From Tribonema minus (taxonomy: Eukaryota > Sar > Xanthophyceae > Tribonematales > Tribonemataceae): a stretch of DNA of 64,000 nucleotides. Under the pieces are notes generated by a model. The model did not search any database and was not told where the DNA came from. It was given only the letters and a program-made list of their open reading frames with translations. Shown here piece by piece: positions 1-64,000 of this stretch. The stretch spans positions 1,302,001-1,366,000 of the forward strand of contig JAFCMP010000079.1 in NCBI GenBank assembly GCA_017506865.1. The letters run 5' to 3'. A program made the position numbers and the translations under genes. How positions within the stretch are numbered: position 1 is the stretch's first letter; each line of letters starts with the position of its first letter.

Positions 1-2308
1 CTGCGAATATGCTTGGTGGCGGCGGTGGCGGCGGCGGCGGCGGCGGCAGCGGCGCGGCGGCAGCAGCGGCGGCGCCGGTGGAGGAGAAATCGGTGTTTGA
101 CGTGAAGCTGGTCAGCTTCGACGCAAAGGCGAAGATCAAGGTGCGCCGCAAGTATTGTTGAAGTTGCTGCTGCAGGTTGCGCTGCAGCAAGAGCTGGTGA
201 ACAGCACGACTGCGTTGACGTGCTGATGGCTTCCAGCTCGCAAGCATTGTGTTGCAGTGATGGGGCTGTCATCAATACCCAAAACTGGACCGCCAGGCCG
301 GGCCAGCAGCTGCACAACTTCAACCTGTGAAGTTCAAGTCGCGCACCTCATCTGCGAACCACCTCTCAAGCGAATTCAGATTTTTTGATTCCTTTTCCCC
401 GCCGCAGCTGCTCTCCGACTATCAATTTACACATCTTTGACTGTTGAACTTCTAGCAGTGTTCCACTGCGCATACGTCTCAAGCAGCAGGCTTGCTGCTG
501 CGCGCTGGACCATGCAACTGCGAAACCGCAGTGTCGGCCAGCACCGTGGCTGCTGGCGCGGCGCGGAACCTCTGCGCTGGCTGCCTCTGGGCGGCGGCAG
601 CGCGGGTTTCGCTCGAGCCCATGCTGCGCACGCATAGCTCCGCTGTCTCAGAGCAAAACGATACCTCTATCGCTGTGCTGACAGACGGCGTGAGTAATGA
701 CGCTTTAGCCTCCTTCAGCGCTGTCTGCAGATGAACTGACTCCCCGCCCTCCTGTGAAGGGCGTTTGTGTGCGCCGTGCGTGCCCCTTGCGGTCCTCGCG
801 TTGAGGGCGGCGTGCTCTGCCATGCGCTGCTTGCGAGCGATGCGTGCACACAGCAGATGCTGCAATCCTTGCCCTGAGGGTGGCATGCGCTGCTCGCAAG
901 CGCTGCTGTACAGCAGCTGGTGCTGCACCACTTGCAGTGTCACGGTGACCTTGGCGCACCAAGCGTGCGGGCGCCGCTCGCGCGACGCTGTTTCTGCCAT
1001 ATGCCATTAACACACTGTATCAGGCCACCACAGCCGCAAGAGCGAGCTTTCCAGCGTTGGATGACGCGGCCTGAGAGTACTTGTTGGCGCCGATGACGCA
1101 AGAGCTCAAGCCCCCCCTTCACCGTTTCTGGACGCTGTCATTGGTGTCGCCGGTCGCAGCTTTGCGTTCGCATGAGCACACGCCAGTGGGGCGTCACTGG
1201 TTGCGCCAAATCCAGGAGAGTCGCTGCGCATAGGAGGGTTCAACTTGTGCACATCCCCTTTCCTGCGCACAACTGCCACACTGTGGCGATCACATCAATA
1301 CATCCCCTGTTCTGACGCTTCGGTGGATCCCTGCGTGCGTGCACTGTCGTGCACTTCACAGGTGATCAAGGAGGTGCGGACGGTCACCGGCCTTGGACTG
1401 AAGGTGCGTAGCGCGTGGCCTGGTACATCTGAACTTCAACTTGAAGTTTGACATTGAACTGATGCCACAATTCAGGCCATACAATTGCTCGTACTGGAGA
1501 GAGAGGGGTGCTACAGGCAGCCACACAGCTGGTTGCTGCGCCGATGGCGCCTGCTTCTTCACGTTAGCGCGGGATGCCAAGAAGGTGCTCGTGGAGGCAG
1601 CGCCCAGCACCTGTGCTGCGATGATGCCACTAGAACTACGCAGAAAGGCGCCGTCGAGTGCTTATCGCGCTGCGCACCTCATGAGGCTGCCGTGTTGTAA
1701 CAGACATCCGGCATGGCACATGAACGCGCAGGATTGCGCGCGGTGCGCTCGACATGCGCCGTTGCACTGTGCCATGTGCATTTCCTGTATAGGCGCCAAT
1801 CGTGCGTGTGGCATGTGTGGCTCTCGGCACTCCGACATGCCGCCGCAATGCCGCACTCTACAGGAGGCAAAGGACCTCGTCCAGGGCGCACCGTCCCAAT
1901 TTAGATGCGCTCTGCTGTCATTGCTGCTGTCAACTCGTCCCGCACTGCGCCATGCACTTGCGTCCTACACAATCGCTGCTGGTCGATCCTCCTCGTTGCG
2001 CCGCCGTCGCCAAACAACTCAACGCACGTGTGCTGCACTGACAGCTCGACCGCACATTCCTGCACAACTCACGCTCCGGACTGTGATTGGGTGTTCTGCA
2101 CCATGGTTCTTGCCAGAATCCCACCCTTCACCCTGACCCTAAGCCTAAACGTACCCCTCTGCCACCCCCCCCCCGTGCGCACGAGCAGGAGGCGAAGGAG
2201 CTGGTGGAGGGCGCGCCCAAGATGCTCAAGAAGGAGATGGCCAAGGCGGACGCGGAGAAGCTTCTCAAGGTCTTCAAGGACCTCGGCGCGGAGTGCGTCA
2301 TGGACTAG
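1..2308 (+). CDS. MRPL12: Mitochondrial-type ribosomal protein L7/L12, C-terminal part (5' end outside or unresolved)
   Basis: Three exons join in phase 0: up to 140 (open reading from the ATG at 9), 1362-1403 and 2189-2308, ending in TAG. After a Gly/Ala-rich linker the product reads as the C-terminal L7/L12 domain. Diagnostic blocks are FDVKLVSFDAKAKIK, then VIKEVRTVTGLGLK, then EAKELVEGAPKMLK, ending GAECVMD. In the family this domain of the ribosomal stalk recruits translation factors. The KVIKEVR and GLGLKEAK motifs are its signature helix-turn-helix, and the FD-x-KL-x-FDA-x-AKIK pattern is closest to mitochondrial L12 of plants and protists. The N-terminal dimerisation domain is not in the window, so the ATG at 9 is probably internal. 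Introns are 1221 and 785 bp. The second carries a decayed copy of the head of exon 3. Location in mitochondria is inferred from family resemblance, because no transit peptide is visible. Confidence 0.88.
1862..1904 (+). repeat. Decayed copy of the L12 last-exon head with acceptor (exon echo)
   Basis: An AG acceptor at 1860-1861 is followed by codons reading EAKDLVQGAPSQF and then an in-frame TAG. This closely matches the true exon head at 2189 (EAKELVEGAP). The copy lies in the same intron, 327 bp upstream and in direct orientation. If it were spliced in, the protein would be truncated. Confidence 0.7.
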
Positions 2309-4330: not shown

Positions 4331-4502
4331 AGTACACTACAGGGGAGGACCCCGAGATGCCATTTGGCGGCGGCGGCGTTTGAGTGGTTGTCGTTGCGAC
4401 ACTTTCAGACTGTCATACGACATGTAGATTCCTTACAGCTAGATGCGAATCATCTGGGCTTTTTCGCGCCCTGAGCGAGAATTAATAAAAAGTACACTAC
4501 AG
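4331..4502 (+). mobile_element. SINE-like retroposon, copy A, with 12-bp target-site duplication
   Basis: The element core is 4343-4490 (148 bp), ending in AATTAATAAAA. It is flanked on both sides by AGTACACTACAG (4331-4342 and 4491-4502). The same sequence recurs at 34143-34287 and 49735-49882 in reverse orientation. The A-rich 3' end, variable-length duplications and slightly different 5' ends are hallmarks of target-primed retroposition. A short hairpin (GGGC, loop, GCCC) precedes the tail. No clear Pol III A/B boxes were recognised. The insertion lies 12 bp past the stop codon of the secreted-protein gene, so it is in that gene's 3' untranslated region. Confidence 0.8.
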
Positions 4503-4514
4503 TACACAGTACAC

Positions 4515-6302: not shown

Positions 6303-9300
6303 ATGGCGGCCGTCCGCCGTGAGCAGGCGCGCAGCACTCCTCATGCAGCGCTGAAGCATCTCTGCCGAAGTTGCGCCACAATCGCTGATTATGAACGTGC
6401 ACGCGCTCACACAGGCCGCACAAGCGCGCGCACGCACGCACACGCTGCGCAGCGCTGCCTGTGACCGCGGGCCGCCGCTCATGTCCGCCGTGCCCATGCC
6501 TGTGCTCTGAGTGTTGCAGCTGCGCCAGCGCTCGACGGCCCGCTCCCGCCGAGCCTGTTTGAGTCCATCTCGCGGCGCGACGAGAGCGGCTTGAGAAAGT
6601 ACATCGCCGCCGGCTTCGACTGCAACGTGGCGGACGCATTAGGTACTTCACCGGGAGCACGCTGCGCAGCGCGCTTGCTGAGCATTGCATCGTGCGCGAG
6701 GCTAGCATTGTCGTCTATTCTGAGTGCCAGTTGCTGCATGCTTGAAGCACATACCGGGTGCGTGCATCATGGTTGCCAGAAGTCAGAGTATTGTTTTGTG
6801 CGATTGCGCTGCGCACTTTACACCCGTCCTTCTAGCTCACGTCTTCTGGCTCACGCGTTGCATGCCAGCGGCGGGCCCTCCTGACACGCGTGCGCGCCAC
6901 AACTGCACCCATCAACAGTGGACACTAATTACACGCACGCATGCGCGCGCCGCAATTGCGCCTTCTTTCAGGTGAGCCAGCAGTGTGCCATGCGGCGCTG
7001 CAGGGGAGCGCTGCCATGGTCAAGGCGCTGGTGGAGGCGGGCGCGAACCCTAATTACGGCGGGTTCAACGGCGGCGACACGCCGCTCATGCAGGCCGCCG
7101 CCCGCGGCTACTTAGAGTGAGTGTTGGAGTGAGTCGTAGAGTCCTTGTGATGATGCGTCATTGGCAACGTGCCGCTCATGCGCTTTGCGACCCGCGGCTA
7201 CTTAGAGTGAGTCTTGGAGTCATTACATCCTAACACATACCTGGTGGCACGCTGCTGATGCATGCCGCGGCATGCGGCCATGTACAGTGAACTCAGGGTG
7301 AGCGTTGATGTCAATGTGACGGTAGCTGATGCGTGCCGTGGCTTGCGGCTGAATGAGTCTTAGTTTTAGTCATGACATTCATACTGCCAGTGTCTGGGTT
7401 GCATGCGGGGTACCTGGGTGCTCTTTGAAGTAGTCACCTGGTTTTCGGAGCGTTCAACGGCCATGCCATGACTGTCATGCACTCAGCACCGCCTTCATGG
7501 AAGCGTGTGTCAGTCGCAGACAAATTGCATTACTCAGGGGCGCTCCCGTGTCTTCAACTTGAGGTACCAACTTGAGGTATCACTGCCAGTTCGCCTCGGT
7601 GTCATGTGCGCCAGCATTCATCAAGCTCGGGATCGCCTGCTCGGGTGCGGTCTGCTGGACCATGCGATACGCCCTCAGAACACTGCAACAGCAGCGACGC
7701 AAGTGATTCAAGACCTGACTTTAACCCTAACACCATGGCAGCGCTCAGCTCCCAGATCACAGGAAGCCCCAGCCTGCTGTCACGCTCACACATATATGCT
7801 CATGTTGCCTGCTCTGTGCCCCCTGCCGCCGTTGCGGCGCGCGCCAGCGTGGTGAGGTACCTGGTGGAGAGCGCCGGAGTCGACATCAATGCGGTCAACC
7901 ACATGGGGGACACGGCGCTGGCCGTCGCCTGCTTCTGGGGGCAGGTGAGGGGATTGCCAGAAGTTGAAGTTGGGGTGGTTGCTGATGATACCACGTGGTA
8001 CCCGGAAGTAATAGTACCTCGCAGTATGGCGTCTTGGGTGCAGGTGGGGGGGTGGGGGGGGGGGGGGGGGGGCTGCAAAGCTAGAGTTGGGGTGGTGGTT
8101 GCTGTGACAGCACATAGCACACCTCACAGCAGTGGACTTCGAAGCGTTGTGGCAGTTGCAGAGCACTGACGCAGATGCTCAGGCAGCTCAGGCAGCGCAG
8201 GCAGTTGACAGATGCTGCTTCGTTTCGTGTTCTTGGTGGTGGATGCATACTGGTGACTGTTTACTTCAACCTGATGTTGTGCAGTTGAACTGATTCATCA
8301 TATAGGACACGAGGCTGCGAGAGGCAGCCGGTCACCCACTGCCTCTTTCGTGGTCACTGCAAGTATCGTCACGCAGCTGCTGTAGCCTTTTCGAGCTAGC
8401 ATCCCGTGCACCTGCAGGCTGTGTTTACCGCGAACTTGACTTGAAGTACAACATTTGAAGTACAATGTCAGCAGGTCAGCGCTCCGTGCAGCACTCCCCC
8501 GAGCGCTTCGTACCGTGCTGCACATGCGCGCGTGCGGATCGTCACCTCACCACGGCTCGGAGATCGAGCGCGCAGCGCAGCAACTAAGTTTTCTCCTGGT
8601 CTCTTTCACATGGCGGACGTGGGAGGCGACGCGCCGCAGCGGCGTGACTCATCTTGAGCTCGAGCAGAACACCGCTGTAGCGACCGCTCGCTCTAGTGCA
8701 CGCTTCACCGACCTCTCAAAGTGAACTGGTGAAGATCAAGAGCATCAGCTCGTGATGCGGATGCTAGGGCCGGTCGGGGTCATGCTGCGGAGCGCTGCAA
8801 CGCATCCATTTCCCTGGTCCAGCAGTATCCACCCTGCGCGCACACGCATTGTTAACTGCCATCATGCTCTTTCAGCCATATTGTTATTGCAATGCGCACT
8901 GTAACCGTAGATCACAAATGTCAAACATATGCCCTCAAATATACATGTAGAGGGATTGGAGCAACGCGAACTCTCACATCAATGTACACCCCCTCGCAGC
9001 TGCTGCCATCATCTGTAGCGTTCTGAACAGATAAATGCGTGTGCTAGACAGCTACATAAAATGCAGAAGTGGAAAGCGGTAGTCTAGGAAACAGGCTGCG
9101 GCGCTGTCTCCCGCCTTCATCGCACCCTTTGTGTTCCCTCTCTGGATTGCGCCGCTGCTGCCGCAGGTCCCAACCGTCAAGTACCTGCTTGACAGCGGCG
9201 CAGACACACAGATCTACAACGATGCCGGCAAACTGGCGGGCGAGGAGTTCGATGCCCTCTTCGAGGTGTGTTAGTTCATCTTCAAGTACATCTTCAAGTC

Positions 9301-10678
9301 GTGGTATATCTTCAAGTATATCTTCATGTATATATTCGCAGATCTACGAAGGTGCTAGCAAGCTGGCGGGCGAGGAGTTCGACGCCCTCTTTGAGCGTGT
9401 TAGTTCATCTTCAAGTACATACTTCAAGTACATCTTCAAGTCGTGGTATATCTTCAAGTATATATTCATGTATATATTCGCAGATGTACAACGACGCCGG
9501 CAAGCTGGCGGGCTGAGGAGTTCGATGCCCTCTGTGAGATACATAGGCGTGTTGGTGTCACCAACTTATCCTCAAGTTCAACGTCACATGCTACTGAGGT
9601 ACGCCGCCGCATGCTGGTTCTTAGTCAGAGTCAGGGCTACCAGTTCTACTAGTAGTGGTGCCGCGTGCTGCTGAGGTGGGCGGCTGCGGTGTGACCTGAA
9701 GCTAGGGGGCGTTTACTAGTCGTAGCAGAGTCACGGCGCACGGCGCTGCAGTCTTTGATGGAGTTAGGGTTAGGGTTGGCAGCTGCTGTTCAGTGCAGTA
9801 CAGTGCTGCGTACTCCCAACGCATGAGCCGCAGTCTCCATCAGAGTTAGGGTTACGGCTAGCAGCCCTAGTAGTTGCGGAAAGCACGGCGTCTCAGTGTA
9901 TTGGAGATAGGGCCAGCAATACTAGCAGTTCTGTGCAGCGGCACTGCGGTATAGACGTCGTGGTTTTGCCCATGCAACACATTCCATACGAGGCTCTCAG
10001 CATGACACCTACTCTGCAAAGTTAGGATTTGCGGCGTGCGCAGGCCAAGGGTGCCGCGGACGTGCGCGCTCTCCTCACACGTACAATTACATTTGAAGTT
10101 ATCAGCATCTTCACTGGAAAGTCAAACTTGTTTCCATTTGAAGTTATCAGCAACTTCACTGGATAGTTGAACTTGCGACGCGCACAGGCCAAGGGCGCTG
10201 CGGACGTGCGCGCACTCCTCACACATATAATTACATTTGAAGTTATCAGCATCTGCACTGCAAACTTTAACTTGTTTACATTTGACATTGTCAGCAACTT
10301 CACTGGATAGTTCAACTTGTGACTCGCGCAGGCGTGCGCGCGCTCCTCACACATAATTAAGTTTTGAAGTATATCAGCATCTGACAACGCTTACACTGGA
10401 AAGTTGTACATGCTTGCGACGCGCGCAGGCCAAGGGCGCTGCTGACGTACGCGCTCTCCTCACCCACAATTACATCTAGTGTTGTCAGCATCTTCACTAG
10501 ATGGTTAAACTTGTGACGCACGCAGGCCAAGGGCGCCGCGGACGTGCGCGCGCTCCTCAAGGACTACCGCGTGCGGCGCGGCCTCTTTGTGGAGGAGGAG
10601 AAGAACCCCCTGCTGTGGTACCTGGAAGAAGACGAATTGGAAGGGGACGGTGCTCAAGACCCCAACGGCCACCAATGA
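6303..10678 (+). CDS. Ankyrin-repeat protein, 210 aa, six exons
   Basis: Exons are 6303-6318, 6520-6642, 6972-7116, 7848-7944, 9167-9265 and 10526-10678 (TGA). Phases agree at every junction and the total is 211 codons. The 16-bp first exon (MAAVR plus one base) was chosen because it supplies the needed phase-1 donor (C|GTGAGC). The protein is built of about four ankyrin repeats: GLRKYIAAGFDCNVADA; AVCHAALQGSAAMVKALVEA with GANPNYGG and GDTPLMQAAARGYLD; VVRYLVESAGVDINAVN with GDTALAVACFWGQ; and VPTVKYLLDSGADTQIYN. A short acidic C-terminus follows (EEEKNPLLWYLEEDELEGD). No other domain is seen, so it is probably a soluble adaptor binding an unknown partner. Three of its introns are filled with tandem copies of adjacent exon edges. 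The first exon is the least certain part. Confidence 0.85.
7117..7365 (+). repeat. Donor-side exon-echo array after ankyrin exon 3
   Basis: The real exon tail GCCGCTCATG...CTTAGA plus donor (from 7081) is echoed at about 7171, 7251 and 7322, spacing 90, 80 and 72 bp. The first copy keeps CGGCTACTTAGAGTGAGT, including the GTGAGT donor. Later copies decay progressively. Confidence 0.8.
9266..9545 (+). repeat. Tandem exon-intron duplication after ankyrin exon 5
   Basis: The exon segment from ATCTAC (9212) to the donor is repeated at 9342 and 9484, together with an intron piece rich in ATCTTCAAGTATAT. Copy 2 translates as IYEGASKLAGEEFDALFE, nearly identical to the true IYNDAGKLAGEEFDALFE, and has its own AG acceptor. 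Its 3' flank reads CGTGTT instead of GTGTGT. Copy 3 has one extra T that creates a stop (KLAG then TGA). Confidence 0.85.
10030..10525 (+). repeat. Acceptor-side exon-echo array before the last ankyrin exon
   Basis: CAGGCCAAGGG...GACGTGCGCGC...CTCCTCA, the acceptor plus head of the exon at 10526, is echoed at about 10041, 10185, 10329 (shortened) and 10426, spacing 144, 144, 97 and 97 bp. Between copies lies an intron unit with repeated TTTGAAGTTATCAGCA. Each copy retains CAG or GCAG before the exon-like block. Confidence 0.85.
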
Positions 10679-12359: not shown

Positions 12360-12707
12360 CTATTTGTACCAGTCGCTCTCGTCCGCGCCCTCGCGGAACG
12401 GGTCGTCCACGGGCGAGCCCACCACCGGCCCCTCCTCGTCAAACAGGCTGTTCTCGGAGTCAGACCCGTCGCCGCCGCCGCCGCCGCAGCTGCTGCCGCC
12501 GTCGTCCGAGTCGCTCGCGTCGCTGTGCATCGTGCTGATCATGAGGCTGTGGCCGAGGCGCGACGCCGGCGTAGCGCAGTCCGCGCCGCCGCCGCCGCCG
12601 CCGCTGCCGCCGTGCGCGCGCGACAGGTTGCCGGAGGACGCGAGCGAGTTGGTGCCGCCGCTGCGCGCGGCGAAGCGGTGGAACATGTTGGTGTCCTCGG
12701 CGTCCGC

Positions 12708-12739
<32 letters not shown>

Positions 12740-15700
12740 GGAGCGGTCCCGCCGCCGGCGGCTGCTGCGTCTGCAGCTGGTCGAGCATGCCGGACATGCT
12801 GAGCCAGTCGAGCATGACCTGAGGCGTTGCACAGCGTTTACGGCGGGGGGGGCGGGAGGGGGCGGGCGGGTGATTGAGCGCGAGCTCGCCTGCACCGTGC
12901 AGCGTGCGATCATGGAAATGAGGTTGCATATGCACGCCGCTGCCGCACAACTCCAGCAGCTCTCTGCAGCTTGACGATGGCATCTGCAGGTTGCGCGCGG
13001 CACCGCGTGGCGCTTGTGGCCGGGTGGAATGCGTGCTCGCCTCGCACAGCGCGCACACCCCAAGTTCTCATCACCACGCGCAACATCATAACTCAGGTAG
13101 GAGTCACGAGTCATGAGTCACTCACTCACTCACTCACTCAGTCACGCACGAACATCACGCACCTGGACGGCGCGATGGACAAACGGCATGTGCATGCGCT
13201 CGTTGGCGTGCGCACCCCAGGTACTCGTCACCCCGCTCGGCATCAGAACTCAGGTGCGCGTCACAGCTCGCTCACTCACGCACGCATGCGCGCACATCAC
13301 GCATTTCGACGGCGCGATCTACGCCCGCCGCGTGCACGTGCCCGTCAGCCGCTTGTCGCGCTCACAGCTGACTCACTCACTCACTCACTCTACTCACACA
13401 CCATCCGAGGGGAGCTAGGCGTTGCATGCACTTCAGCGGCGTGGTCAACGTCTGACGCATGCGCTTGCGGCAAAATCTCCAATCGGCACGCTCTCTGACT
13501 CACTCACTCACTCACTCGTCCTGTACAATCAGAAACCTCAACAGAGTGAACCAGCATGTGGCTGCAGCGGCACCACCCGTCGGTCGTCAGACTCACAACT
13601 CACTCACTTACTCACTCTACCCACTCAATCGGAGAAGCCGCTAAGCGCCGCTGCACGCACCTCAGTCTGCCGCACAGCCGCTTGGCTCACTCGTTCTACT
13701 CACTCACTCTACTCGTACAATCGGACCGAGCGCTGCAGCACCGCGCACCTCGACGGCAGGTTGACGTCCAGCATGTGGTGGCAGCAGAACTAAGTACCTC
13801 TATCTGCATGAGCTCGCCGGCCTCACAAGTCACTCACTCGCTCATTCTACTCATGCAATCGGGCTGAGCGCTGCAGCACCGCGCACCTCTACGGCGTTTG
13901 ACGTCCAGCATGTGGTGGCAGCGGAACCAAGTACCTCTTTCTGCATGAGTTGCTGGCCTCTCAACTCAATCACTCTACTCACTCGCTTTCCCCACGCAAT
14001 CAGAGAAGCTGCTGAGCACTGCACCACGCACCTCCACAGCGTGGTCAACGTCCAGCGTGTAATTGCAGCGGAACTGTGTACCTCCATCTGCATGAGCGCA
14101 CCGGCCTCTCAACTCACTTCACTCTACTCACTCACTCTATCCAGCGATCAGAGAAGCTGCTGAGCACTGCACCACGCACCTCGACGGCGTGGTCGACGTC
14201 CAGCATGTGGTGGCAGCGGAATCACTCCATCTGCATGAGCTCACAAATCACTTACTCACTCACTCTACTCGTACACTAGGGCTGAGCGCTGCAGCACTAC
14301 GCACCTCCACGGCGTGGTCGACGTCCAGCATGTGGTTGCAGCGGAACCACTCCATCTGCATGAGCTCGTCCGCGGTGAGGCGCTCCTGGGGGTCCATGTG
14401 CAGGCAGCCGCGAAGCATGTCCCTGCAGCGTGAGGGCGGAGAGGGCGGACGCGCGTGAAAAGTCCGCCACCACACGAGAGCTAGGAATCGGGCGACACCG
14501 CCAAAGCGCATGTAAGCTAATGCTGACCCTAATACTAGGTCTGGTCCTAATTCTAGCCCTTGACGCGGTCGGCACCGCAGCGCAGGAGACTGCGGTTGGC
14601 AGTGCCAATGGCTCCACAGGGTGAGCCACCTAGGCCGCCATTACGCGAAAGCCGCCAGGCGTGCAACGCGGCTGGCCATACCAATGGCATCGTGAAGTGA
14701 GCGGCACGTGAGAGGAAGAGGAGCGGCGTGGGACGGCAGGGGGTGGATGCGAGCGACGCTGCCGACGACGGGTATTGCGGCACGTCCCGCCTTTGCGGCA
14801 GTCCCGGCGTGGCGCGAGGGCGTACGCGAGGAACGCAACTGTAACCGTAACTCTAACCCTAATGGCCGTGATGAGGCAAAGTGCGGGCCGCCATGACTTC
14901 AGCCGCAAGCTTCGAGGAACGCCGCACAGGTAGCAAATGAAGCTGGCCAACAGTGCGCCGTGAGCAATGCAACGGACAGGGTCGGTCACGCGCAAAGCGG
15001 TCAGCTGAGGCGCTAACGGTGTTGCGCCGATGGCGCTCGGGTGGCAGTCCCTGATGCGGCTCCGTTGTGCAACTTCAAGTGCGCCCTGTTTGATTACTTT
15101 GGGTAATTGCTCACACCGGGGGGTGACGTCCCGCAGCTTCCATCGACAACTTCTTCTACAAGCTAGAAAGAACATGCATTGCCGCGTGCGCACAGCATGG
15201 CGCTAAGAAGAAGGTCACAGGCTCGTTGTAGTTAATGCCGGGAGGTGACATCCTGCAACTCCCGTCCAAGCCATTGTGAGCATGGAAAACGTGCAATAAC
15301 ACGTGCACAAGACACGGCGCGTCAGGGCATGTGCCGGACGAAACTTGAAGTAAACACCGGGTGTGACGTGCCGCACCGGAAGTTCTCGCTGACGCCCGGG
15401 ACCTCGCAGATGATCTCCTCCAGCTCCACCTCCTCCAGCATGGAGTGCAGGTCTATTTGCGTCGGCGCCTGCATGAATGGCAGTTTGCTGCGCGCGCAGG
15501 GACGACAAAGGCAACAATGTGTTGGGGTTAGGGTTTGCAAACTTCAACATGGTGCGTCAACTCGTAAAAGAGGAGTTGGCGTGCGCCTGCTGCAGGCTGC
15601 TCTGACTGCAGCGAGCCCATCGTGTTGTGCACGATGCATTGTTTGCGCCACTTGATGGCGGGAGAGGGGCGCTATCTGCTGGTGGAGGCTTCGCTTCGTA

Positions 15701-34132: not shown

Positions 34133-34297
34133 TACAAGTACTTTTTATTAATTCTCGCTCAGGGCGCGAAAAAGCCCAGATGATTGGCATCTAGCTGTAA
34201 GGAATCTACATGTCGTATGACAGTCTGAAAGTGTCGCAACGACAACCACTCAAACGCCGCCGCCGCCAAGTGGCGTCTCGGGGTCCCTACAAGTACT
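34133..34297 (-). mobile_element. SINE-like retroposon, copy B, with 10-bp target-site duplication
   Basis: The element core is 34143-34287 (145 bp), in reverse orientation relative to copy A. The flanking duplication is TACAAGTACT (34133-34142 and 34288-34297), which in element orientation begins AGTACTTGTA. It shares the CTCGCTCAGGGCGCGAAAAA end and the CGACAACCACTCAAACGCCG block with the other copies. Confidence 0.8.
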
Positions 34298-43500: not shown

Positions 43501-43886
43501 TCGCACTGGGCGCGGTGGCGGCGGGGCGCGCGCCGCAGTGGTACTTTGACCCCGACGCCACGGCGGGCGGCGGCAGCGGCTACTACCGCTCCGGCGGGGG
43601 GGCGCCGGAGGGGCTGGCGTACGTGGCCGGGGGCATCTGGGGGGCGGCGCACGGGCTGAGCAGCCAGCTGACGGAGCTAACGTGAGTGGCGCGTCGCGAG
43701 GCATTTAAGTGTATGTTGAGGTTGATGGGAGTTGAAGTTTGGAGGTGGAGCTGAGCGTTGCGTCTCTTGGGTAGTGGGCGCTTGCTTGTGAGGGGGGTGT
43801 TGAAGCATGCAGGTTTGACGCATCCGCTGGAGGCCCCTATATACCACCGCAGGCAGGAGGGGGCGGTGGGTGGGGCAAAGGCTGGG

Positions 43887-43922
<36 letters not shown>

Positions 43923-46900: not shown

Positions 46901-48355
46901 ATTCACTTCGCAGGGGCGTGCGGCGGCAGCTGGCGCGCGTGGCAGTTTGTGCGCGGGGACCGGTACGCGTACGAATCGATTCGGCGCTCCCCCAGCGGCT
47001 CCTCCACGGGGAGCAGCTCCAAGGACATCGAGGCTGTGAGTCTTGTCACCCTTTGCCCCCACGTTCTGCGGTGGATGATGCCTGTGAACATGCGCTTGGG
47101 AACCTACGCAGCAGCTCCACAGGCGCGTGCTGCTGGCGCCAGGCGCGGCACTGAAGTCGCGCCGCGATGAGCATGCTCGTGTGCTGTGGTGCCTGGGCGT
47201 TTGCGCGTCGACAACCTGTGGTACGACGCTTGTTCGCGTTCTCAACGAGCAAAATGACCACACCCTCAGAGAGTCTCTCCTCCCATCTGCAGAGTTGAGG
47301 TTCGCCGGCTTCGTGCTCGCTGCTAGAGTGCTCTGGGTGGAAACGCGCCCCACGATCTCGTGTTTTGCCCGCAAGACATCACACTTTGTGAAAACGGCTT
47401 GGGCTGCGGATACACTAACCCTGCAGCGCGCTGGCTGCTCCGCTGTTGGCCTCGCAGGTAAAGCAGCACGGGACGACCAATACGCATCAGCAGGTCGTGA
47501 TCACACACGCGCCGCTGGTGCAGGAGTACACTGCGACGAATGGGAGAGACGGGCGGCCGGCAACAGGTGACGTGCATTTTGCCATCCGCATGCGCACCGC
47601 TGGCGGTGGCGGGTCGCTGCGCTGCGCGGATGCTGCTGAGCGGTGTTGTGCGTCGGCAGCTGCACTTCGCCTCGCCGATGTTCTGCTGCATGCCTCACCC
47701 CGAGCATATTCAGAAACCGCAAGTGCGGAATGCAGAGATGGGAGTTCCTTGCTGCTTGCCTCAATAATACACTACCATTTCAATAGTATGCTAGAAAAAC
47801 GAGTGCATACAAGGCCTGAAACGCAGTCGGGCTGCACTGCAGCAGAGGAGTCAGTCGCGTCTCATTGTGCATGGTTGCGTTTCAACCTGTGCATGGGGCG
47901 CAGGATGCTCGTCGTTTTCAAACTGTCGTTCCCATACAGTTTGCATCAGCATCGTTGAAGGATTCAAGGCGCGCTCGTGTGCCCGCCGGCATTGACAAGT
48001 CTGCACATTCACAAGTGTGCAGTTGCTCTTCCATCCAGTGCCCACCGTGCAGCATCTGCGCAGAGCACCTAGTGCATCGCGTCATCTGCGATTTGCAGAT
48101 GCCATGCACAGTGAGCATGAAGCTGCTGCCACGCACCGCCCTCTGCGGCAGCGCTCAGTCCACATGCATGCGCTGCCTCAATATGGCACCATCTTTTCAA
48201 CAATACCATTGGAACTGGTCTCTCATCGCCTCTGCCGCAGCACTGCATCGACACTCAAAACGCGTCCACTCGTCGACTGTCTATCTTCGCTTGCAGGCGT
48301 CCATCGGCTGGGCCCGCTTGTAGAAGGCGGCGAATCCGACGCCTCCATTAATTAA
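37566..48355 (+). CDS. Kelch-propeller single-span membrane protein (5' end not found, about 595 aa mapped)
   Basis: Exons: 37566-37638, 38255-38349, 39000-39069, 39800-40008, 40912-41057, 41776-41979, 42726-42867, 43491-43681, 44989-45137, 45835-45909, 46480-46621, 46914-47035, 47458-47566, 48297-48355 (TAA). Phases agree except between 43681 and 44989, where one small exon is probably missing. Kelch blades are clear: MPRTDMGAAVTNAAMYLVGG, DLVDVFAPNWTAAARLPS, HVVVAGG with YRATDTIDILRE, LPQPRFDMSSCCFKHICVFAGG, DRVDVWNGERWGWT, VHMVGFFAGG, GEVDVFNSTSLCWTSYK and GLAYVAGG. A Pro-rich linker leads to a membrane helix (VVYLMIAALALLVSYMVSAA), followed by basic residues (ILRRTEG) and a tail of about 120 aa with SPSGSSTGSSSKD. 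By the positive-inside rule the propeller is probably lumenal or extracellular. A signal peptide should lie upstream of 37566. Its introns carry at least six exon-echo arrays. Confidence 0.85.
40620..40911 (+). repeat. Acceptor-side exon echo of the kelch exon 40912
   Basis: A GCAG acceptor at 40687-40690 is followed by about 80 bp that repeat the exon head with high identity, in frame: EGVTQAGKVSVTNVLVQRLP then QRRFDM. The live exon reads EGVTRAGKVSVTNLPVQRLP. Copies are 221 bp apart and share an intron flank of CATTCATGAATTCATCCA. A 21-bp repeat (CCTCAACAGAAGGTCTGAC) also lies at 40826-40860. Confidence 0.9.
41330..41775 (+). repeat. Acceptor-side exon-echo array before the kelch exon 41776
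   Basis: The head CGACCGCGTGGACGTGTGGA...TCGGACCACACGCTG is echoed near 41605 (with a stop, GTGTGAAACGG), 41438 and 41336, at roughly 100-170 bp spacing. The linked intron block CCACAGTGACGCTAC...ACTTG is repeated as well. Confidence 0.8.
43200..43490 (+). repeat. Acceptor-side exon echo of the kelch exon 43491
   Basis: CAGCTGGACGGCATCGCCCT at 43319 repeats the exon head at 43488 (169 bp apart) and continues for about 80 bp. One G is missing from the GGCGGGG run, which shifts the frame. The intron part (ACCAACTTCAACTCCAA...CTCTCTGTGCGCG) is duplicated too. Confidence 0.85.
44733..44988 (+). repeat. Five-copy, 58-bp tandem array in which most units repeat an AG acceptor
   Basis: TCAGCCCTCATGCAGTCC-type units start at about 44733, 44791, 44831 (shortened), 44889 and 44947. 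Full units end TTGTCTGCGCAGATGCC or similar. The last unit carries the acceptor used at 44988/44989. Confidence 0.88.
45150..45325 (+). repeat. Donor-side exon echo of the kelch-gene exon 44989
   Basis: TTCAAGAACCCCCTGGAC...AAAGCCCGTAGCGGATCCGC at 45081 recurs at 45225, 144 bp apart. An intron block (ACTTCAAGTA...ATGCTCTGATTACAGCATGT) occurs at both about 45160 and 45306. The copy has lost the GTGAGC donor. Confidence 0.85.
46350..46479 (+). repeat. Acceptor-side exon echo of the membrane-span exon
   Basis: ACCAGGTGGTGTGCACCTGA at 46361 repeats the live ACCAGGTGGTGTACCTAATG at 46475. About 70 bp of the helix-coding sequence follow (CTGCTGGTGTCGTACACTGT against CTGCTGGTGTCGTACATGGT). An in-frame TGA disables the copy. 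Confidence 0.85.
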
Positions 48356-49085: not shown

Positions 49086-49728
49086 CTGCCGGTTCATGAA
49101 CGGCAATTGCCTCCACACAATATGCATCACGCGTCTTGCCGTGCATTTACAACTGCGGTGCGGCGTTTGTGAGTTGTTGCCATGCCTCAGGATGCAATAC
49201 CACCTCTCGACTGAAAGGCAGCAACAGCATGCCTCTGCTCTGCTGCTTGCTCTGAGGCTCAGACCAAAGCGGAGGCGCAATGACCCTCGTTTTGTGCCGC
49301 TACGCTTAGCTACAGCGACGGCGCTGATGCGAGAGGTTCGCCAGGCCAACAGCACGTGCACCTGCGCCAGCTGCTGCTGCGAATGCTGGCGCTTCATTGC
49401 TGTGGTGAAAGGCTGCTTCCTTCAAGGTATCATTGGAGTACTGCTGCGGCACACACACCTGTACCTGCGGACTACCACCCCTGGCGCCTTGATTTCAAGG
49501 GAGGTCCAATGGTAGTTTTTGTGCCAAACAGGAATAAAATGTGAACTTCACACATGCCTAGACTATACCACACACTTGCAGCACACAACACAGTCCCCAA
49601 AGTTCAGGTCACCTGCAAGTGACATTCAGGTCACCTGCAAGTGACATTGAGGCCACGTATCTGTGGTGTGGCTACAGCCTGAATCTATTGCAGCTTCCGC
49701 AGGGGGGCATTCAGGCAGATCACAGGTG

Positions 49729-49888
49729 AGTACTTTTTATTAATTGTCGCTCAGGGCGCGAAAAAGCCCAGTTGATGGTGTACATAACTTGATGCTGCTG
49801 TACGGAATCTGCATGTCGTGTAACTTTTGAAAGTGTCTCAACGACAACCACTCAAACGCCGCCGCCGCCAAATGGCATCTCTAGTACT
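49729..49888 (-). mobile_element. SINE-like retroposon, copy C, with 6-bp target-site duplication
   Basis: The element core is 49735-49882 (148 bp), reverse orientation. It is flanked by AGTACT at 49729-49734 and 49883-49888. It is more diverged internally than copies A and B, with GTTGATGGTGTACATAACTT replacing the corresponding segment. Its 5' end is about 10 bp shorter (AGAGATGCC against GGGAGGACCCCGAGATGCC). Confidence 0.78.
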
Positions 49889-50084
49889 TCAATCACAAAC
49901 TTCAATCGCTAGTTGAAGAACAAGGTGGAAAACGCATGCATGCTAAGAGGCCGCCTCCGCCTAGGGCAAGAGCGCAACATTGTAGTTCGATGACCAGCGG
50001 CGTTGTTTGCTGACGTGGCTCGTGTGAGAATACCAGCAAGACAGCCTCAAAGATATCGCTGGCGCTTGCGCAGACGACAGCAAG

Positions 50085-53000: not shown

Positions 53001-56000
53001 ATCCGCGTGCGCCGCTGCCGTTGCACGCCTCCGCCATTGCGTGCCCACGCTCGCACGCGGCAGGCAGTACGTGCTTTTGCGAAGAGTATGTTCGCGCATC
53101 TCGTGCCGCCGCGCTTGTTTCTCTTCCCCAAGCACTTCCAGGGTACCCCCGCAAGGGGTGGTCAGACGCGCGTCGAGCGCTGCCATATCTCATCACTGCA
53201 TGAGGTTTGTATAGGTATGTAGCCAGGCTTGAAACTCACCATTTGCATGCCTCTGGGCCCCGCATACGCTGCGCACCAGTGCCACTTCTGCAGTGCATGT
53301 TGCTTGCGTGGTACCATTGTGGGCGCTTGCAAAAGTGCATACTTAAGCGCGAAGCGCTTTTCGTAAGTGCTGCTGCGATTATGCTCATGCAGCGGTGACC
53401 CTGGCCTTGCCACGCTGCGTCGCAGTCCGAGATGGAGTCTGGCGCGCTGCAGGAGGCGTTGGACATGGCCGTGCAGCGTCTGCAGGCAAGTGCGCGAGCG
53501 CTGCTGCGTTGGTACACTTGAGCGCTGCTGCAGTACACTTGGGCGCTGCTGTGGCAGTACACTTGAGCGCTGCTGCAGTATACTTGAGCGCGATGTCGCA
53601 AGCGCTGTGTTGCGGTACACTCGCATCACGCTTGAGCACTGTTGTGTTACGCGCTGCTGTGGTACACTTGCAGTACACTTGAGCACTGTTACAGTACACT
53701 TGAGCGCCATCACAGTACACTCGAGCGCTTGTGCGGTACGCCTAAGCGTTGCTGCGGTACACTTGAGCGCTGCTGCAGTACACTTGAGCGCTGCTGCGGT
53801 ACACTTGAGTGCGCTGTCGCAGCGCAAGCGCCGTGCGGTACCCTTGCAGTACGGTTGAGCTGCTGCAGTACACTTGAAGTACACTTGGCACTGTTGCGGT
53901 ACACTTGAGCGCCATTACAGTACACTTGAGCGCCTGTGCAGTACGCCTCAGCGTTGCTGCGGTACGCTTGAGTGCTCCCGCAGTACACTTAGAGCGCAGC
54001 TGTAGTACACCTGAGCACAGCTGCAGTACACCATGGCAGTTTGGCATCTCACGCTGTCTGCTGCCGGCGGCGGTGGCTGCACTGGCGTCCCTGCTTGTAG
54101 CACATCCCTGCACCTGCAGCTGTCTGCGCGGGCATTAAGCAGACGCAGCGCCTGTGAGGCCTGCACGCATCAGTGCGCGCGCGCTCAAACGCCTGTGTGG
54201 ATGACTTCATCAGTTGGCCAGCGCATTGTCAATGTGCCTTGAGTGCCACCTTTCGCCGACCAGAGATCGTAATGCCGGCTCTGCGGCGCTCGCCGCCTGC
54301 ATCAGCAGTGGGCGCCACTTGGCACAGGGCGAGAATGGGTGCGGTGCGCTGCGCTGAGCACTGCCGCTGTGCTGAGCAGCGATAATGACACTTGCTGCCG
54401 CCGCTGCTGCTGCTGCTGCTGCTGCTGCTGCCGCTGCTGCTTATGCTGCTGCTGCCGCTGCCGCCGCTGCTGCTGCCGCTCTCCACCGCGCAGGCGCAAC
54501 TGGCGGATGAGCGCAAAATGGCCGAGTCAGACAAGGTGAGACACGCTGGTGCCCATTCACCTATGACGGCCTCGCCTGATGTCAGTATGTATATACATAT
54601 CATAATGCAGTATGTCAGACGTGACATGGACCATGCCAGTTGATGACAGGCGTCATAAAGAGTGAAATCAAGTGTGAGAAGCAAGACAGCGGCCCGCCAT
54701 GCAACAAGGGACTGCGCACGTGTACATGATTCGACGTGCACCATACTTGCTATACGACGCCCTTGGGATCATCTGCGCCTGTGCCTCACTGCATTCATGC
54801 ACGGCATGTGTCAGGCGGTGGCACCTTCAAGGGACGTGACGCCCGCTAGCCCACACCTTCACCATGTGAATCTTATCGTGTATGCATCGCGTGCAACATG
54901 ACTCGTGTTGACTCAGCGCGACATGTGTAGACTCTGCGGAGCCTGCAGCCTGCAGCCTCAGTACACATGCGTGGATGTGTGTATACGGCACACAACACGT
55001 TTTTCTGTGTGACAGTGCGGTTTTCTGCGTGTGACGACGCCGCTCATTGCGCTGCGCGCTGCCGCGCCCGCGCCGCCGCCGCAGATGGGCCTCGCGCAGA
55101 CCGTGGAGCTGCTGCAGAGGGAGCTGCAGGAGCGCACGGTAGCTGCTCAGCAGCAGCAGCAGCAGCAGCAGCGCAGCAGCAGCGACGCGCAGGTATGTGC
55201 CGCGGCTCACTAAGGTCAGCGCCTGATGCCGCTGTGTGCTGCAGTCATCGCCAGGCCTGTATGTCGTGCGGTCTATCCGTGCCAGTGGTAGTTGCTGTCA
55301 ACACCAGCATGACGCGTCAGCATATGTACAGTCCATATTGTGTACGATAAGTGAACTGCGGCAGTGCACAGCAGCAGCAGCAGCAGCAACGGCAGCGGCG
55401 GCGGCGAGCGGCAGGGGCAGCAGTTGTGACGGTTCATCGGGCAAGCCTGCCTCGACAAGTGCCAAGGCGTCGGCTCGCACAGCGAACGTGTGCCGGGCCG
55501 GTGAGGCGGCGCTATTATTTTCGTTATCATTTTAATTTTTAAGAGCACACCCACCGTATTTGACTCCTGACAATTCTGCAGTCGATCGCTTCAAGGGTCA
55601 GGGTCTGCATTGATTTTGTGCTTTGCCGTCAGCTGCGTGTGCACACACGGCGCCACCATATGATGCGCCCTTCCCCTCTCACTTCACCTGCGCTCGCCAT
55701 TGGCATACGCAGCCACCCGCAGCCCCCGGCGACGCCGACGCTGCTGCTGTTCAGGAGGAGCTCGCCGAGCTCATGGCCGAGAAGGTGCGTCGGTTACGTG
55801 GCGGTTACGCATTGGTGACGCTCCGCACTAAGCCCAATGCTACGGTACATGTTGACTGCAGAAGTGCGGCGCGCACCAGCAGCTGTCGCAGCTGCCTGCT
55901 CGGCGATGCTCGTCGTGGTACCAAGGGCTGTTTTCTGGTGACTGCAGCTGTGAGCGGTACTGCTACGGAGTCTCTGCGATGTTGAGAGAGTGCCTGTGCG

Positions 56001-59000
56001 AGCGCTGCTATGCCGCCGCTGAGTGCTGCATCCTGTCCCCAGACTTGAAGTCAGGGTTGAAGTATGTAGATCCAACTCACACCCACAGTAGCCAGGTGTT
56101 TCAGAGGGAAACGTATCTCTTCTGTTGCAAGGCGGCACGGCACAAACAGTCGGCTGGGTGTATGTATGCAAAGCTGCTGCCATTACTGCGCCTGGCATCG
56201 CCGATGGTGTCCAACCTCAACACCTCCTTGTACGCCCCCAACGTGGTGACACACCTCTGGGATCAATAACATATACTGCTGCCCTGCTCAGGGCGCGGTG
56301 GAGCGGGACCTCCGCGTGGCGCTGCAGCAGCTGGAGGCCGCGCGCGCCGGCGCCGAGGCAGCGGCGCAGCAGCTGGAGGAGGCGCGGAGCGATGCTGCAC
56401 ATGCTGAGGCTGCGCAGACGGACTTGAAACGCCTGGTCGAGATGACGAGGTGCGTTGGGAAATGAATGTACATGCGATTGTGGGGGATGGTGGCCACAGT
56501 GATGACCTGTCGCGTCGTGGAAGGGCTTCAGCACACATGCTGAGGTGCATTTGGAAATGAAGGTACGTGTGTACGGTGGGGGGAGGGGGGGGGGGGTGTG
56601 TGATGGTGGTCACAGGGATGTTTGTCGCGTTGTGGGAGGGCTTCAGCTGCAGCACGCTGCGGCACCCGCGCATCGGTTCACGACCGGCCAGCAGGCGCGT
56701 GCAACATGCTTTTAAGAGGGGCAATTACGGGCGCAACTTGAAATCCAGGCTCACGTACCCAACCTGCATTCGTCACGTGCTGCGGCGCAGGGACACGCTC
56801 GACGACGCGCGCGAGCAGGTGGCGCAAGTGGCAGAGGAGCGCGACGTCGCGGCGGCGGAGGCAGCGGCGGCGCGCGCGGATGCGGCAGCGGCGCGGCAGC
56901 AGCGCGACGACGCTCTGTCAGAGTACGAAGCCTCTGCGCAAGGTGCGCAATCTCTGTTTTGGACGAGTGGGGGGCACTGTTCTCTTTCTTTGTCGTGTGG
57001 TGATTAAGCGTATGGACACAAAGTATGTGCGCCACAGCGGATGCTCATTCGCAGGGCTGGCATGTATGTACCCGCGGTGCGGAGCGCACTTGTTGATGCG
57101 CTGTGAGGTGACCTGTTGTCGTCCGCGGCAGCAGCCGGAGAGAGCGCCGCAAAGCGCTGCGGAGGGGAATTTCTCAGCGTTGTGGCATTCTCCAACGGCC
57201 GTGTGCCGTGATGCTTGCTTCTACGCGTTGCTGCAGATGCGGGTGCGGTGTGGGTCAGGTTCAGGGTGAGGGCTAGGGTTCCGTGTGGGTCTGCCGGTTC
57301 GCACCGGTGGACTGCACGTGCTTTCTTTACGTGACATGTCAAGATCCTGCTCTCTTTGAGTGTGCTCTCAGTTTTAGATATTAGCACTGGACCGCGCCCC
57401 ACCTGTACGTTGTAACTTCGGAACCATGAATTGTTGCATGTGTGCGTGTTCGGCGGCGGCCTCTCCAGTCCATCACTTGGAAGTTCAAGTCTGCAAGCAG
57501 GCTATTTCGTCTTGTGGTTGCACTTCAAGTTGAGCGCCCATCCGCCTCGCCCTGACCATATGATAACATGCAGTAGATTCAGGATGTTGCGCCTGTGCCT
57601 TGCCTGCGGTGTTGCGGTCCCTGTGCAGCCTTCGCCGCGCAGCTGCACGAGGTGGCGCAGCAGCAATCTTCAAGTGGTGACGCTCAGCCAGCGGAACTGC
57701 TGGCCAGCAGGGGTGAGTGCGCGGCGCTCCATTTGTAAGGCTGATGGTGATTCCCCTGGCAGGCGCACATTGCAATCATGCTCTGACTGCCGGCAAGCCC
57801 GTCATTTAACATCAAGTTGAACTTCAACCAAAATTGTCACTTTCAACATGAAAAGTCACTCCACCTTCAACGAGTCGCTATTTCTGCACTACGCGCGGGC
57901 TGCACGCGCTGTGAGCATATTGCATGTCTGCAGACACATGTCGAAGAGCCTCATGGCACTCCAAGACGTGTTGCGATGCCATTTCAAGTACATCCTGTCT
58001 GACGCCTCAAAAATCAAGTGCGCTGCAGAGGCAGAGCTTGAGAGCCAGCTGCAGCACAGAGGGCGGCGACACGCGCGTACGCGAACTTGAAGTACATTCT
58101 TGAAAAGTAAAGTGTGCCGCAGAGCTCCAGAGCCAGCTGCAGTACAGACAACGGTGACGTGCACTGCACGTACACGCATGGTCTGTCTTCACAGACCACT
58201 GCTACCCCCCCCGTTGTCGCAGATGCTGCACTGGCGCGCATCGCGGAGCTCGAGGGCCAGCTGCAGCAGGAAGCAGTGCAAGGCGACAGCGCAGCCGCTG
58301 CTGCAGAGGCTACTGCCTACGCGGACGCGCTGCAGGCTGCTCTTGCGGACGCTGAGCGCAGGCTGCAGGAGCAGGGGGAGCAGTGCTCGGTCAGGACTCA
58401 CGACTTGCAGCTGCAGGTGAGTACGAGTCTCGCTGCTGATGCGGATTGTGCAAGACCAGTAGGCACTGCAGGTGAGTATGAGACTTGATGCGTAAACCGC
58501 ATGGTGCATGTGCAGCGGGCAGCCGGGCGCTGCACTGGGACATGAATGTTCAACACTTGAAGTTGCGCTCTGAGTTAGAGACCTGCTCTCATAGCACACG
58601 TGTGTTTGGGCCTGAAATGAGCTTGACATGGCAGAATTGCTGATGGAAGGCCACAATGGTGATGTGCAACTCAGGTGTGCTGGCTGATACAACGCAGCCA
58701 CAAGAGCCTGCTTGCAGCTAGGCTGATCTTCAACCTGAAGGCACCAGTGTTGCTCAAAAGCGTGAAATTGATGGTTTCAATCCGCGCGGTCCTAGCGTCA
58801 CGTGCCGCGTGGCGCACAGCACATGACGCACACTACGCTCGCTCGTTCCTCTCACTGCCAGGTGGAGGGCCTCGCGTCAGCGCTCGAGGAGGCGTCCGCA
58901 ACGGCGGCGCAGCTGGAAACGGAAGCGCTACCGCAGGAAGCGGCGCTCCGCGCGGCAGCAGAGGCGGAGGCAGCGTCTCTGCGCGCCGCGCTGGAGGCCG

Positions 59001-62000: not shown

Positions 62001-64000
62001 GCCATGAACTTCAAGTTTTGCACTTCAAATGACTTCATGAACGCAACTGCCTGTTTCGCACATGGATATATACTTGCAGTCAATATCTGCATGTTGCCTG
62101 TAGTTCTGCTGGTGACATACAATGTCCACGAAGTTTTTAGAGTAAAGGACGAAGGGGAAGCACTGCATGTACGCAATGAACCCCCTGCGGAATTGGTTGC
62201 AGTACTAACTTCAAGTTACATTTGCCCGTGCTGCAGGGGCGAGGAGGGCGCCCGCGCTACGCAGCAGGAGGCGCTTCAGCGGCAGCTGCAGGCTGAGGCG
62301 CAGGCGGCGCGCGCGGAGGCAGATGAGGCGCGCGCAGCTCTGGCCAAGCTTTCCGACAAGAAGGTGAGGAGGCTACCTTCTCTGTAGTCGCTTCAAGTTT
62401 GTGAAGTTCCGTCATCTCAACAGGGCGGATGAGGCACGCGCTTTGGTTCCGCTTTTGACCAGAAAGCGAGTACTGCTGTGCATGTAATTTGTGAAGCTCT
62501 TATACCTGTATTCGGGAAGTTTGGCCGCTTTGCATGGGCGGACGAGGCACGCGCAGCTCTGGCCAAGCTCTCCGACAAGAAGGTGAGGGGGGAGCCAACG
62601 TGCTCTGTAGTTGCTTGAAGTTTGTGCAAGTTCCGTCATCTTACAAGGGAGGACGAGGCCCGCGCTTTGGGTCAGCTTTCTGCCAAGCAGGTAACTATGG
62701 CGTCGCTTGAAGCGCTGTGTCTTGTTGAAGTTGACATTGCTGATGCGTAGAGAGCCAGGGGCGCCCGATGCATGCACAGCCGCTGCCCAGATGTTTGACA
62801 TGAAAGTGGTTGCCCGCCCCTTTGATGATGAGTAACGCTTCAACACTCATTTCATCGCCTGCCATGTGCGGTCCTCCTGGAACGCAGTGCCTCGAAGCCG
62901 CTGCCGCTTGGCACTGCGTGAGGTACGGTGAAGCGTGCAGCACTTGCATGGCAGTGCTCCGCGTGGCAGCGCTCACCCCCAACCTGCCCTTGTAACTGCC
63001 CGCAGAAACGCGATCTGGGCGAGCTGCGCCGCCTCGGCGAGAGGCTGCACGCGCTGCAGAAGGAGCGCGCAGAAGAGGCCGCGGAACACGCCCAGGAACG
63101 GTCTCGGCTGGAACATGCGGCGGCGGCGGCAGCACGCGAGGCACAGGCGCTGCGTGAGCGGTTGAGCACTGCGCCGCCAGAACAGGTGCGGCTCATGCAT
63201 TGTCGATTACCATTCGCCTTGGTCGTACTTCAACTAGGATGTGCGATCGGGCGCATGCTTGTGCTTGCGGTTTGACAGTGTTGATGGCGAAGCGGGGTGG
63301 CATCATTCAACCAGGCGTATGCATGTCGCTGCAAATAATAGTACCTGCGCTGCTGGTTGAATGGGCGATGGTCAGCCCTAAATGCATGAGTAGCGTTGCT
63401 GGCTGCAGGGCTCGCAGACACCGTTTTGAACTTGCTTCACCATCAGAGCGTGCACCATGCCTTATCGAATCACTTGTGAAGGCCAAGTGAAATGATGCCC
63501 GCAGCCACCAACAGTTGTGAAGCAGCACCCATAGCTCATGCACAAGGAAAAAACACTGCGGACAGGCTGCCAGACTGTGCCACCATGAAAGCTGTGAGTA
63601 TAATGTCACTCTGCAGACAGCAGTCCTCTCATGAACTTGAAATGAACCTACTTGAGGCACTGCTTGAGACTCCAAGTGCCGCTGACATGAACAAACAAGT
63701 ATAGCTAAGGCGAGCACTGTCCAATCCTGTTGCAATGCCCCTTGTTGTGCTGCTGCAGCGAAACGGCAGCGTCGGCGCGCCGGCGCCTGACGAAAGCGCA
63801 GCGGAGGAGCTGCGCGCCCATGTGGAGGAGGTGAGCGCCTTGCTCAGTGCTCAACCCAATGCTGGACCTTGCATGCATCATGCTCACAGACCAGCTCAAA
63901 GCCTATTGTATCGACTAGACTTGGGGACAACAATATGTGTTTTAAATGCGCCAGCCGCCCGTGCGCTTTGCCTAAGCTATACTCTTTAACATGGTTGACA
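50085..64000 (+). CDS. Golgin-like giant coiled-coil protein (3' end beyond window; at least 1484 aa)
   Basis: Exons: 50085-50304, 51255-51409, 51813-51923, 52546-52609, 52800-52852, 53426-53485, 54494-54535, 55085-55192, 55755-55784, 56292-56449, 56791-56942, 57629-57712, 58223-58416, 58862-61405, 61724-61821, 62237-62363, 63006-63185, 63759-63830 (donor present, open). Phases close at every junction. The start MWGSLGRLQNVGQGVGGLLR then SAVGEGAKLLERMD is an amphipathic helix rich in Gly/Ser/Leu, like the membrane-binding N-termini of golgin tethers. An acidic stretch follows (DGDSEGDYESGGGEEPE), then almost continuous Ala/Glu/Gln/Arg heptads. Exon 14 alone is 2544 bp (848 codons), with an internal 60-residue repeat. 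The intron after 53485 has a GC donor (CAG|GCAAGT). Exons 4, 5 and 9 are short and least certain. A Golgi or vesicle-tethering role is inferred from architecture only. Any C-terminal GRIP or similar domain would lie outside the window. Confidence 0.85.
50890..50935. other. Interstitial TTAGGG-like cluster
   Basis: GTTAGGGTTAGTGTTAGGGT followed by TGAGGTTAGG, within the first intron of the coiled-coil gene. Confidence 0.7.
53486..54020 (+). repeat. Minisatellite of about 22-bp units filling the start of an intron
   Basis: Some twenty units of the type GAGCGCTGCTGCAGTACACTT begin right after the GC donor at 53486. Variants carry GCGGTACACTTG or ACAGTACACTTG. The intron's own first bases (GCAAGTGCGCGAGCGCTGCT) match the unit, so the array appears seeded from the donor-proximal sequence. 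Confidence 0.85.
54394..54480 (+). repeat. CTG/CCG trinucleotide tract before exon 7
   Basis: An imperfect (CTG)n run with CCG interruptions ends just before the acceptor at 54492-54493. It would serve as a pyrimidine-rich tract. Confidence 0.85.
58010..58195 (+). repeat. Acceptor-side exon echoes of the exon 58223
   Basis: The block GAGCTCGAGGGCCAGCTGCAG of the live exon is echoed as GAGCTTGAGAGCCAGCTGCA near 58034 and GAGCTCCAGAGCCAGCTGCA near 58122, each followed by AC-rich intron sequence. Confidence 0.65.
59037..59400 (+). repeat. In-frame 180-bp (60-codon) duplication inside the large coiled-coil exon
   Basis: CTCAGGCAGCAGCTCGCAGA recurs exactly 180 bp apart (59042 and 59222). Both copies encode LRQQLADAEAAAAS followed by similar heptads. 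A coding-phase tandem duplication lengthened the rod. Confidence 0.85.
62364..62700 (+). repeat. Donor-side exon-echo array after the exon 62237-62363
   Basis: GATGAGGCGCGCGCAGCTCT (live, 62322) is echoed at 62428, 62541 and 62652, spacing 106, 113 and 111 bp. The middle copy keeps an intact frame, ADEARAALAKLSDKK, and a GTGAGG donor. The last ends CAG plus GTAACT. Confidence 0.9.

Follow-up and report, generated by a model that had tools for sequence, protein, structure and literature searches.

The closest described counterparts of the arrays reported here are the mirages of amphioxus, in which a tandem direct repeat unit extends across an exon-intron boundary and duplication may affect 5' as well as 3' boundaries. 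The mirage copies are described as leaving regular splicing undisturbed and as unstable in length between haplotypes or cells. They are described from Adh3 and the globins BflGb6 and BflGb9 (PMC3087553), and a second paper adds troponin C, as well as PGBD5 with similar repeats (PMC3902484). The globin units measure 150-160 bp, AG/GT stands in many copies and there are signs of unit turnover (PMC3087553, PMC3902484). In potato RdRp, one tandem duplication of an intron end together with an exon head created a new intron (PMC4974935). The tandem genomic duplication model of intron gain (AGGT; Rogers, Hellsten, Gao and Lynch) lets new introns split exons, as cited in PMC3443670. Introner elements are mobile, and their dispersed copies at new sites add intronic sequence at large scale (PMC9860276).

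The window analysed in this work is a stretch of 64 kb, positions 1302001-1366000 of contig C79, from the genome of Tribonema minus (158 Mb, 554 contigs). This organism is a yellow-green alga. For gene modelling 55.5 of the 64 kb were read as sequence, and splice signals together with a continuous frame gave models of six genes. These contain 44 introns in total, with a median length of 628 bp (n=44), and the introns are numbered from 0 inside each gene model. Pfam labels were given to a bL12-like gene (L12) and an ankyrin gene (ANK). KIN, at 12360-21093, is a MAP2K-like kinase, while PAP, GOX and CC are working labels only.

The original prediction had held that no named system matches the arrays. 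This was wrong, as the anatomy is that of the amphioxus mirages: a tandem direct repeat unit lies across the exon-intron boundary (15 strong matches in 14 introns), both 5' and 3' boundaries are duplicated (eight strong tails, seven strong heads), and the unit size is comparable to that given in the amphioxus papers. We class the T. minus arrays as mirages in a distant lineage, a stramenopile alga and not a lancelet, and at high density, with 14 of 44 introns strongly affected. Within the open-access PMC papers covered, both lineage and density are new. Compared with the amphioxus mirages, the T. minus copies are mostly more decayed, and they are known here from the sequence of one assembly. 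Where the potato duplication created a new intron, T. minus gives no sign of a new intron or exon, save in the doubtful public model P0001. We consider mirage-type arrays, i.e., junction-spanning tandem duplications that pad introns, to be the best explanation, with a probability of about 0.8.

Echoes of exon edges in the window

For each exon tail and head, up to 60 nt were compared by alignment with the intron next to it and with the other 43 introns; the threshold was the 99.9th percentile among 1892 mismatched pairs, and the reverse complement served as control. Own-intron matches exceeded the threshold in 20 of 88 tests from the six window genes (10/44 tails and 10/44 heads), and the reverse-complement control in 0/88. 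All ten heads beat every mismatched pair, compared with only six of the ten tails; the mismatched maximum was 29 for heads and 51 for tails, and the 99.9th percentile lay far under the strong own-intron scores. The start of KIN exon 7 was revised after this test had been counted. Fifteen of the 20 matches were classed as strong (8 tails and 7 heads), located in 14 of the 44 introns and belonging to ANK, KIN, PAP, GOX and CC, which is close to the fifteen introns in five genes of the original prediction. Three matches were weaker (L12 intron 1, GOX intron 8 and CC intron 7), and two, in CC intron 3 and GOX intron 4, are possibly of low complexity.

Gapless self-comparison of the window (score at least 18, spacing 40-500 bp) recovered 194 local direct matches, versus 2, 1 and 2 in three block-shuffled controls. 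Self-BLAST pairs less than 1000 bp apart were direct in 88 cases and inverted in 6, and with at least 50 bits the numbers were 50 and 0, respectively. Chance or composition as a source of the echoes was ruled out by the mismatched-intron, reverse-complement and shuffled controls; the exon-edge echoes in the introns of the window are real. Two of the checks proposed along with the original prediction, window self-comparison (194 matches versus 1-2 after shuffling) and intron-versus-exon alignment (20/88 versus 0/88), upheld its view of local, direct arrays on both strands. The matches formed 34 clusters, 27 involving introns, 4 in coding exons and 3 outside modelled genes. Exon contact of the 27 intron clusters amounted to at least 25 bp in 17 and to 5-8 bp in 4; the remaining 6 had none, which counts against the mirage-type explanation. 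Tandem copies constitute 18.5% of intron bases compared with 1.6% of bases outside modelled genes. The predicted addition of length to introns by local duplication was supported. The difference between intron and outside clusters (27 vs 3) had a P of 4e-4 in a comparison that excludes the clusters wholly inside coding exons (4/34) and in which "outside" may contain unmodelled genes, one of the three outside clusters lying in an open frame.

Tail and donor copies were found downstream of exons, acceptor and head copies upstream, and self-comparisons confirmed this geometry together with the predicted unit sizes of 58-235 bp. In ANK (plus strand), tail and donor copies follow exon 6972-7116 in intron 1 (7073-7349, unit about 90 bp) and exon 9167-9265 in intron 3 (9209-9538, unit 130-143 bp), and four acceptor and head copies precede the last exon, 10526-10678, in the same intron 3 (10006-10559). 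In KIN (minus strand), nine tail and donor copies follow exon 14422-14305 in intron 7 (13049-14368, unit 125-148 bp). Exon 16546-16454 is followed by tail and donor copies in intron 5 (16006-16499, unit about 235 bp) and preceded by acceptor and head copies in intron 4 (16512-16832, unit about 143 bp), and tail and donor copies follow exon 19659-19449 in intron 2 (19109-19510, unit about 140 bp). PAP, likewise on the minus strand, has a tail and donor copy after exon 27965-27804 in intron 6 (27639-27858, unit about 127 bp), an acceptor and head copy before exon 31254-31103 in intron 1 (31208-31497, unit 135 bp), and in intron 3 an array (30078-30399) extending at most 14 bp into exon 30625-30386. 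A perfect 70-bp tandem duplication at 29485-29628, also in PAP intron 3, has no exon contact; its copies are identical, and the duplication is therefore recent.

In GOX (plus strand), acceptor and head copies precede exon 40912-41057 in intron 0 (one copy, 40618-40990, unit 221 bp, with an intron-internal pair at 153 bp), exon 41776-41979 in intron 1 (41244-41839, unit 172-175 bp), exon 43491-43681 in intron 3 (43127-43565, unit 170-184 bp) and exon 46480-46621 in intron 7 (one copy, 46361-46543, unit 112-114 bp). Exon 44989-45137 stands between an array of 58/97-bp units in intron 5 (44722-44993), which ends 5 bp inside the exon, and a tail copy in intron 6 (45073-45358, unit 144 bp). CC intron 11 (62318-62808, plus strand) carries tail and donor copies after exon 62237-62363, with a unit of about 219 bp. 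Weak head copies, all on the plus strand, were seen before exon 2189-2308 in L12 intron 1 (1861-2217), before exon 46914-47035 in GOX intron 8 (46666-46938) and before exon 58223-58416 in CC intron 7 (58031-58268). A minisatellite of about 21 bp (53495-54031) starts about 10 bp past the exon end at 53485, a possible GC donor, and occupies half of CC intron 1.

Strong tail matches (8) begin within the first 30% of the intron and strong head matches (7) within the last 40%. This bears on the idea that the introns themselves were created by AGGT duplication or by introner insertion. The arrays resemble the AGGT model in being tandem duplications within genes that involve splice signals, and they share with introners the addition of intronic sequence; a dispersed repeat of 149 bp is also present in the genome. 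However, the AGGT model predicts that the intron start resembles the head of the next exon and the intron end the tail of the previous one. The reverse was found in the 15 strong matches, where existing introns lengthen, and AGGT intron gain was rejected on this geometry. Introners would match across many introns, whereas mismatched introns seldom match here. The arrays are therefore not introners but private to their own exon, as the original prediction had maintained, and introners were rejected since the sequence is not common to different introns. There is no overlap between the dispersed repeat and any cluster. Creation of the introns by either route can practically be dismissed. The dispersed repeat, of about 149 bp, has three copies in the window (4347-4495, 34138-34286 and 49730-49881) and at least 10 matches in the genome, and is in tandem in locus L005. 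An inverted pair TACCGTAAATCACGGGGTATAAG, noted by eye, encloses about 730 bp of KIN intron 4 (approximately 16935-17667); this segment has an internal direct repeat at 497 bp and is perhaps a small DNA transposon.

Decay of the copies and possible turnover of the arrays

The state of the copies was assessed in 34 copies from 16 arrays, each compared with its exon, leaving out arrays with at most 14 bp of exon (GOX intron 5, PAP intron 3 and CC intron 5) and two weak heads (GOX intron 8 and CC intron 7). Differences between exon and copy at codon positions 1, 2 and 3 numbered 55/558, 59/545 and 109/550 (0.099, 0.108 and 0.198), and 26 of 27 indels in the copies were frameshifting. The copies thus decay beside an exon that keeps its frame. 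With 26/27 indels frameshifting and equal drift at positions 1 and 2, the copies look dead; to judge from these comparisons they drift freely, and changes of the exon beside them are mainly in third positions. Where aligned, the splice dinucleotides are retained, GT in 13 of 15 copies and AG in 11 of 11, which would be expected if the copies were functional alternative exons or splice-regulating decoys under selection. Yet GT/AG survival needs no use, because a divergence of about 10% leaves most of these sites intact, and copies as functional exons were rejected on codon-position drift and frameshifts.

The public T. minus protein P0001 enters on both sides of this question. It holds 10 of the 11 modelled GOX exons, with four additional exons upstream and one downstream, it is without G6 (44306-44355), and its G7 begins earlier, within an array. 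Copies of the GOX intron 5 array (44734-44988) are read as exon in place of G6; either the public model was misled or these copies are expressed. This exon use favours functional copies and counts against the mirage-type explanation, but P0001 omits the copies in five other GOX introns, i.e., 0, 1, 3, 6 and 7. Altogether we regard selected function of the copies as very unlikely. Copied splice sites can mislead gene prediction, and P0001 is a public T. minus protein that includes array copies.

Divergence of the copies from their exon ranges from roughly 4 to 37%, with many indels. Collapsed or duplicated haplotypes would not look like this, and the arrays end at exon edges in several unrelated genes; the sole identical pair is the one at 29485-29628. 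Misassembled haplotypes or read errors are hence a most improbable source of the arrays. Four relatives of KIN, from Phaeothamnion, Chrysoparadoxa, Ascophyllum and Scytosiphon, align with it gaplessly at its four strong echo introns, and this lack of insertion in the relatives supports the mirage-type explanation. No T. minus protein matching the KIN model was listed among the 8000 public candidates scored, and the T. minus match of the search, P0027, was 43% identical; the gene may for this reason be absent or broken in the public annotation.

It was predicted that similarity to the exon falls with distance in most arrays. Among the 12 arrays with at least two matches this is true of 6, namely KIN7, KIN2, ANK1, GOX1, GOX3 and GOX0 (gene and intron number), with small reversals in KIN7 and with GOX0 depending on one doubtful far match. 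The other 6, ANK3 tail, ANK3 head, KIN5, CC11, KIN4 (at the third match) and GOX5, show no gradient, and this half of the arrays counts against the mirage-type explanation. In KIN intron 7, where nine matches spread across most of the 1486 bp, identities run 0.95, 0.84, 0.82, 0.81, 0.80, 0.71, 0.74, 0.73 and 0.63. The exon's own unit is closer to copies 3 and 4 (0.88, 0.85) than to copies 1 and 2 (0.82, 0.76), and unit relationships in this array are mixed, in keeping with repeat turnover and so with the mirage-type explanation; other arrays are weakly resolved. Decay with distance was only partly confirmed, and the predicted steady growth beside the live exon in most arrays was not supported. 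From these similarities, growth at the exon side appears to be mixed with internal duplication or exchange, and units appear to have been reshuffled as well, because the KIN exon unit is closer to copies 3 and 4 than to 1 and 2.

Placement of the duplications and a palindromic motif

The placement of duplications was compared with a null in which events of the observed sizes fall uniformly and those breaking an exon are purged; spanning means at least 15 bp of exon. Three arrays with less than 15 bp of exon, as well as GOX intron 8, were scored as internal, and the decayed pairs at 13049-13318 and 19109-19217 were merged into their arrays. Junction-spanning events made up 17 of 26, counted by hand, versus 28% expected (P 7e-5), and the exonic part of the 17 was 29-79 bp, narrower than under the null (P 5e-5, a feature noticed before testing). 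On the scale of the window, and post hoc, both points go beyond what plain neutral duplication explains and count against the mirage-type explanation.

A palindromic motif, (A)ACTT[C/G]AAGT(T), occurs in the introns of the window, for instance at 42875-42883 and 9280-9480. The forms TTGAAGTT/AACTTCAA occur 38 times, in both orientations, versus 0.85 expected by base composition. The core TTGAAG/CTTCAA reaches 2.5 per kb in introns compared with 0.79 outside genes and in exons, and 18 core sites lie within the first 60 nt past donors. Pairing between intron ends is one guess for its role.

These observations could be read as exon-directed duplication. Duplications would then not fall uniformly and be sifted by selection afterwards, but start preferentially at exon edges, owing to transcription, splicing, the position of nucleosomes or a signal in the sequence. 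They would extend into the exon by an almost constant 30-80 bp and concentrate in transcribed genes, perhaps tied to palindromic ACTT[C/G]AAGT near donors, and introns would grow by an active, sequence-directed engine instead of as a side effect of random duplication and selection. The junction excess and the narrow exonic part point this way, as do the coverage of introns by copies (18.5% versus 1.6% outside modelled genes) and the enrichment of the motif in introns and past donors. On the other hand, the events were counted by hand, the exonic-part test is post hoc and the outside may hold unmodelled genes. Spanning pairs are recognisable for longer because exons are conserved, and with a twofold weight for this easier recognition the junction excess weakens to P 0.02. 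We hold an exon-directed process, and likewise such an engine, to be unlikely.

Other contigs and the growth of introns in T. minus

Similar arrangements were met on other contigs. A search with the MCM profile gave 28 matches on five contigs, and three of them adjoin a true exon with an overlapping profile range and in the predicted order, at the level of profile matches. These are a head copy on C156 (45657-45779, before 45459-45635, minus strand), a tail copy on C445 (350204-350290, after 349973-350101) and a tail copy on C1 (1942291-1942368, after 1942459-1942605, minus strand). A fourth, ambiguous profile overlap, on C146, contains stops. Of seven small loci, parts of four were examined: in L007 (C509) a putative exon head recurs 93 bp upstream, over 26 bp and together with the acceptor, and L002, L003 and L005 held repeats of other kinds.

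According to the mirage-type explanation, tandem duplications of about 60-235 bp would occur across the exon-intron junction, through slippage, template switching or unequal exchange, as we infer. Splicing could ignore the extra partial copy, since the full exon would keep one adjoining splice site, and the copy would stay in the intron as neutral sequence, normally spliced out. Further duplication and unequal exchange would expand and reshuffle the units, while point mutations and frameshifts would erode them and the intron would lengthen. Junction duplication may be a main source of intron length genome-wide.

To our knowledge, the lengthening of introns without obvious transposons is poorly known. 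Echoes are common enough in this window of T. minus to be a visible mode of intron growth, and their resemblance to the mirages of amphioxus points to one process at work in lineages that are very far apart. If the window is typical, T. minus would hold very many datable junction duplications. It could therefore be measured directly how often they arise, where they fall and what becomes of them, including whether a copy ever turns into a new exon or intron. The T. minus genome may in this way turn a known curiosity into a measurable process.
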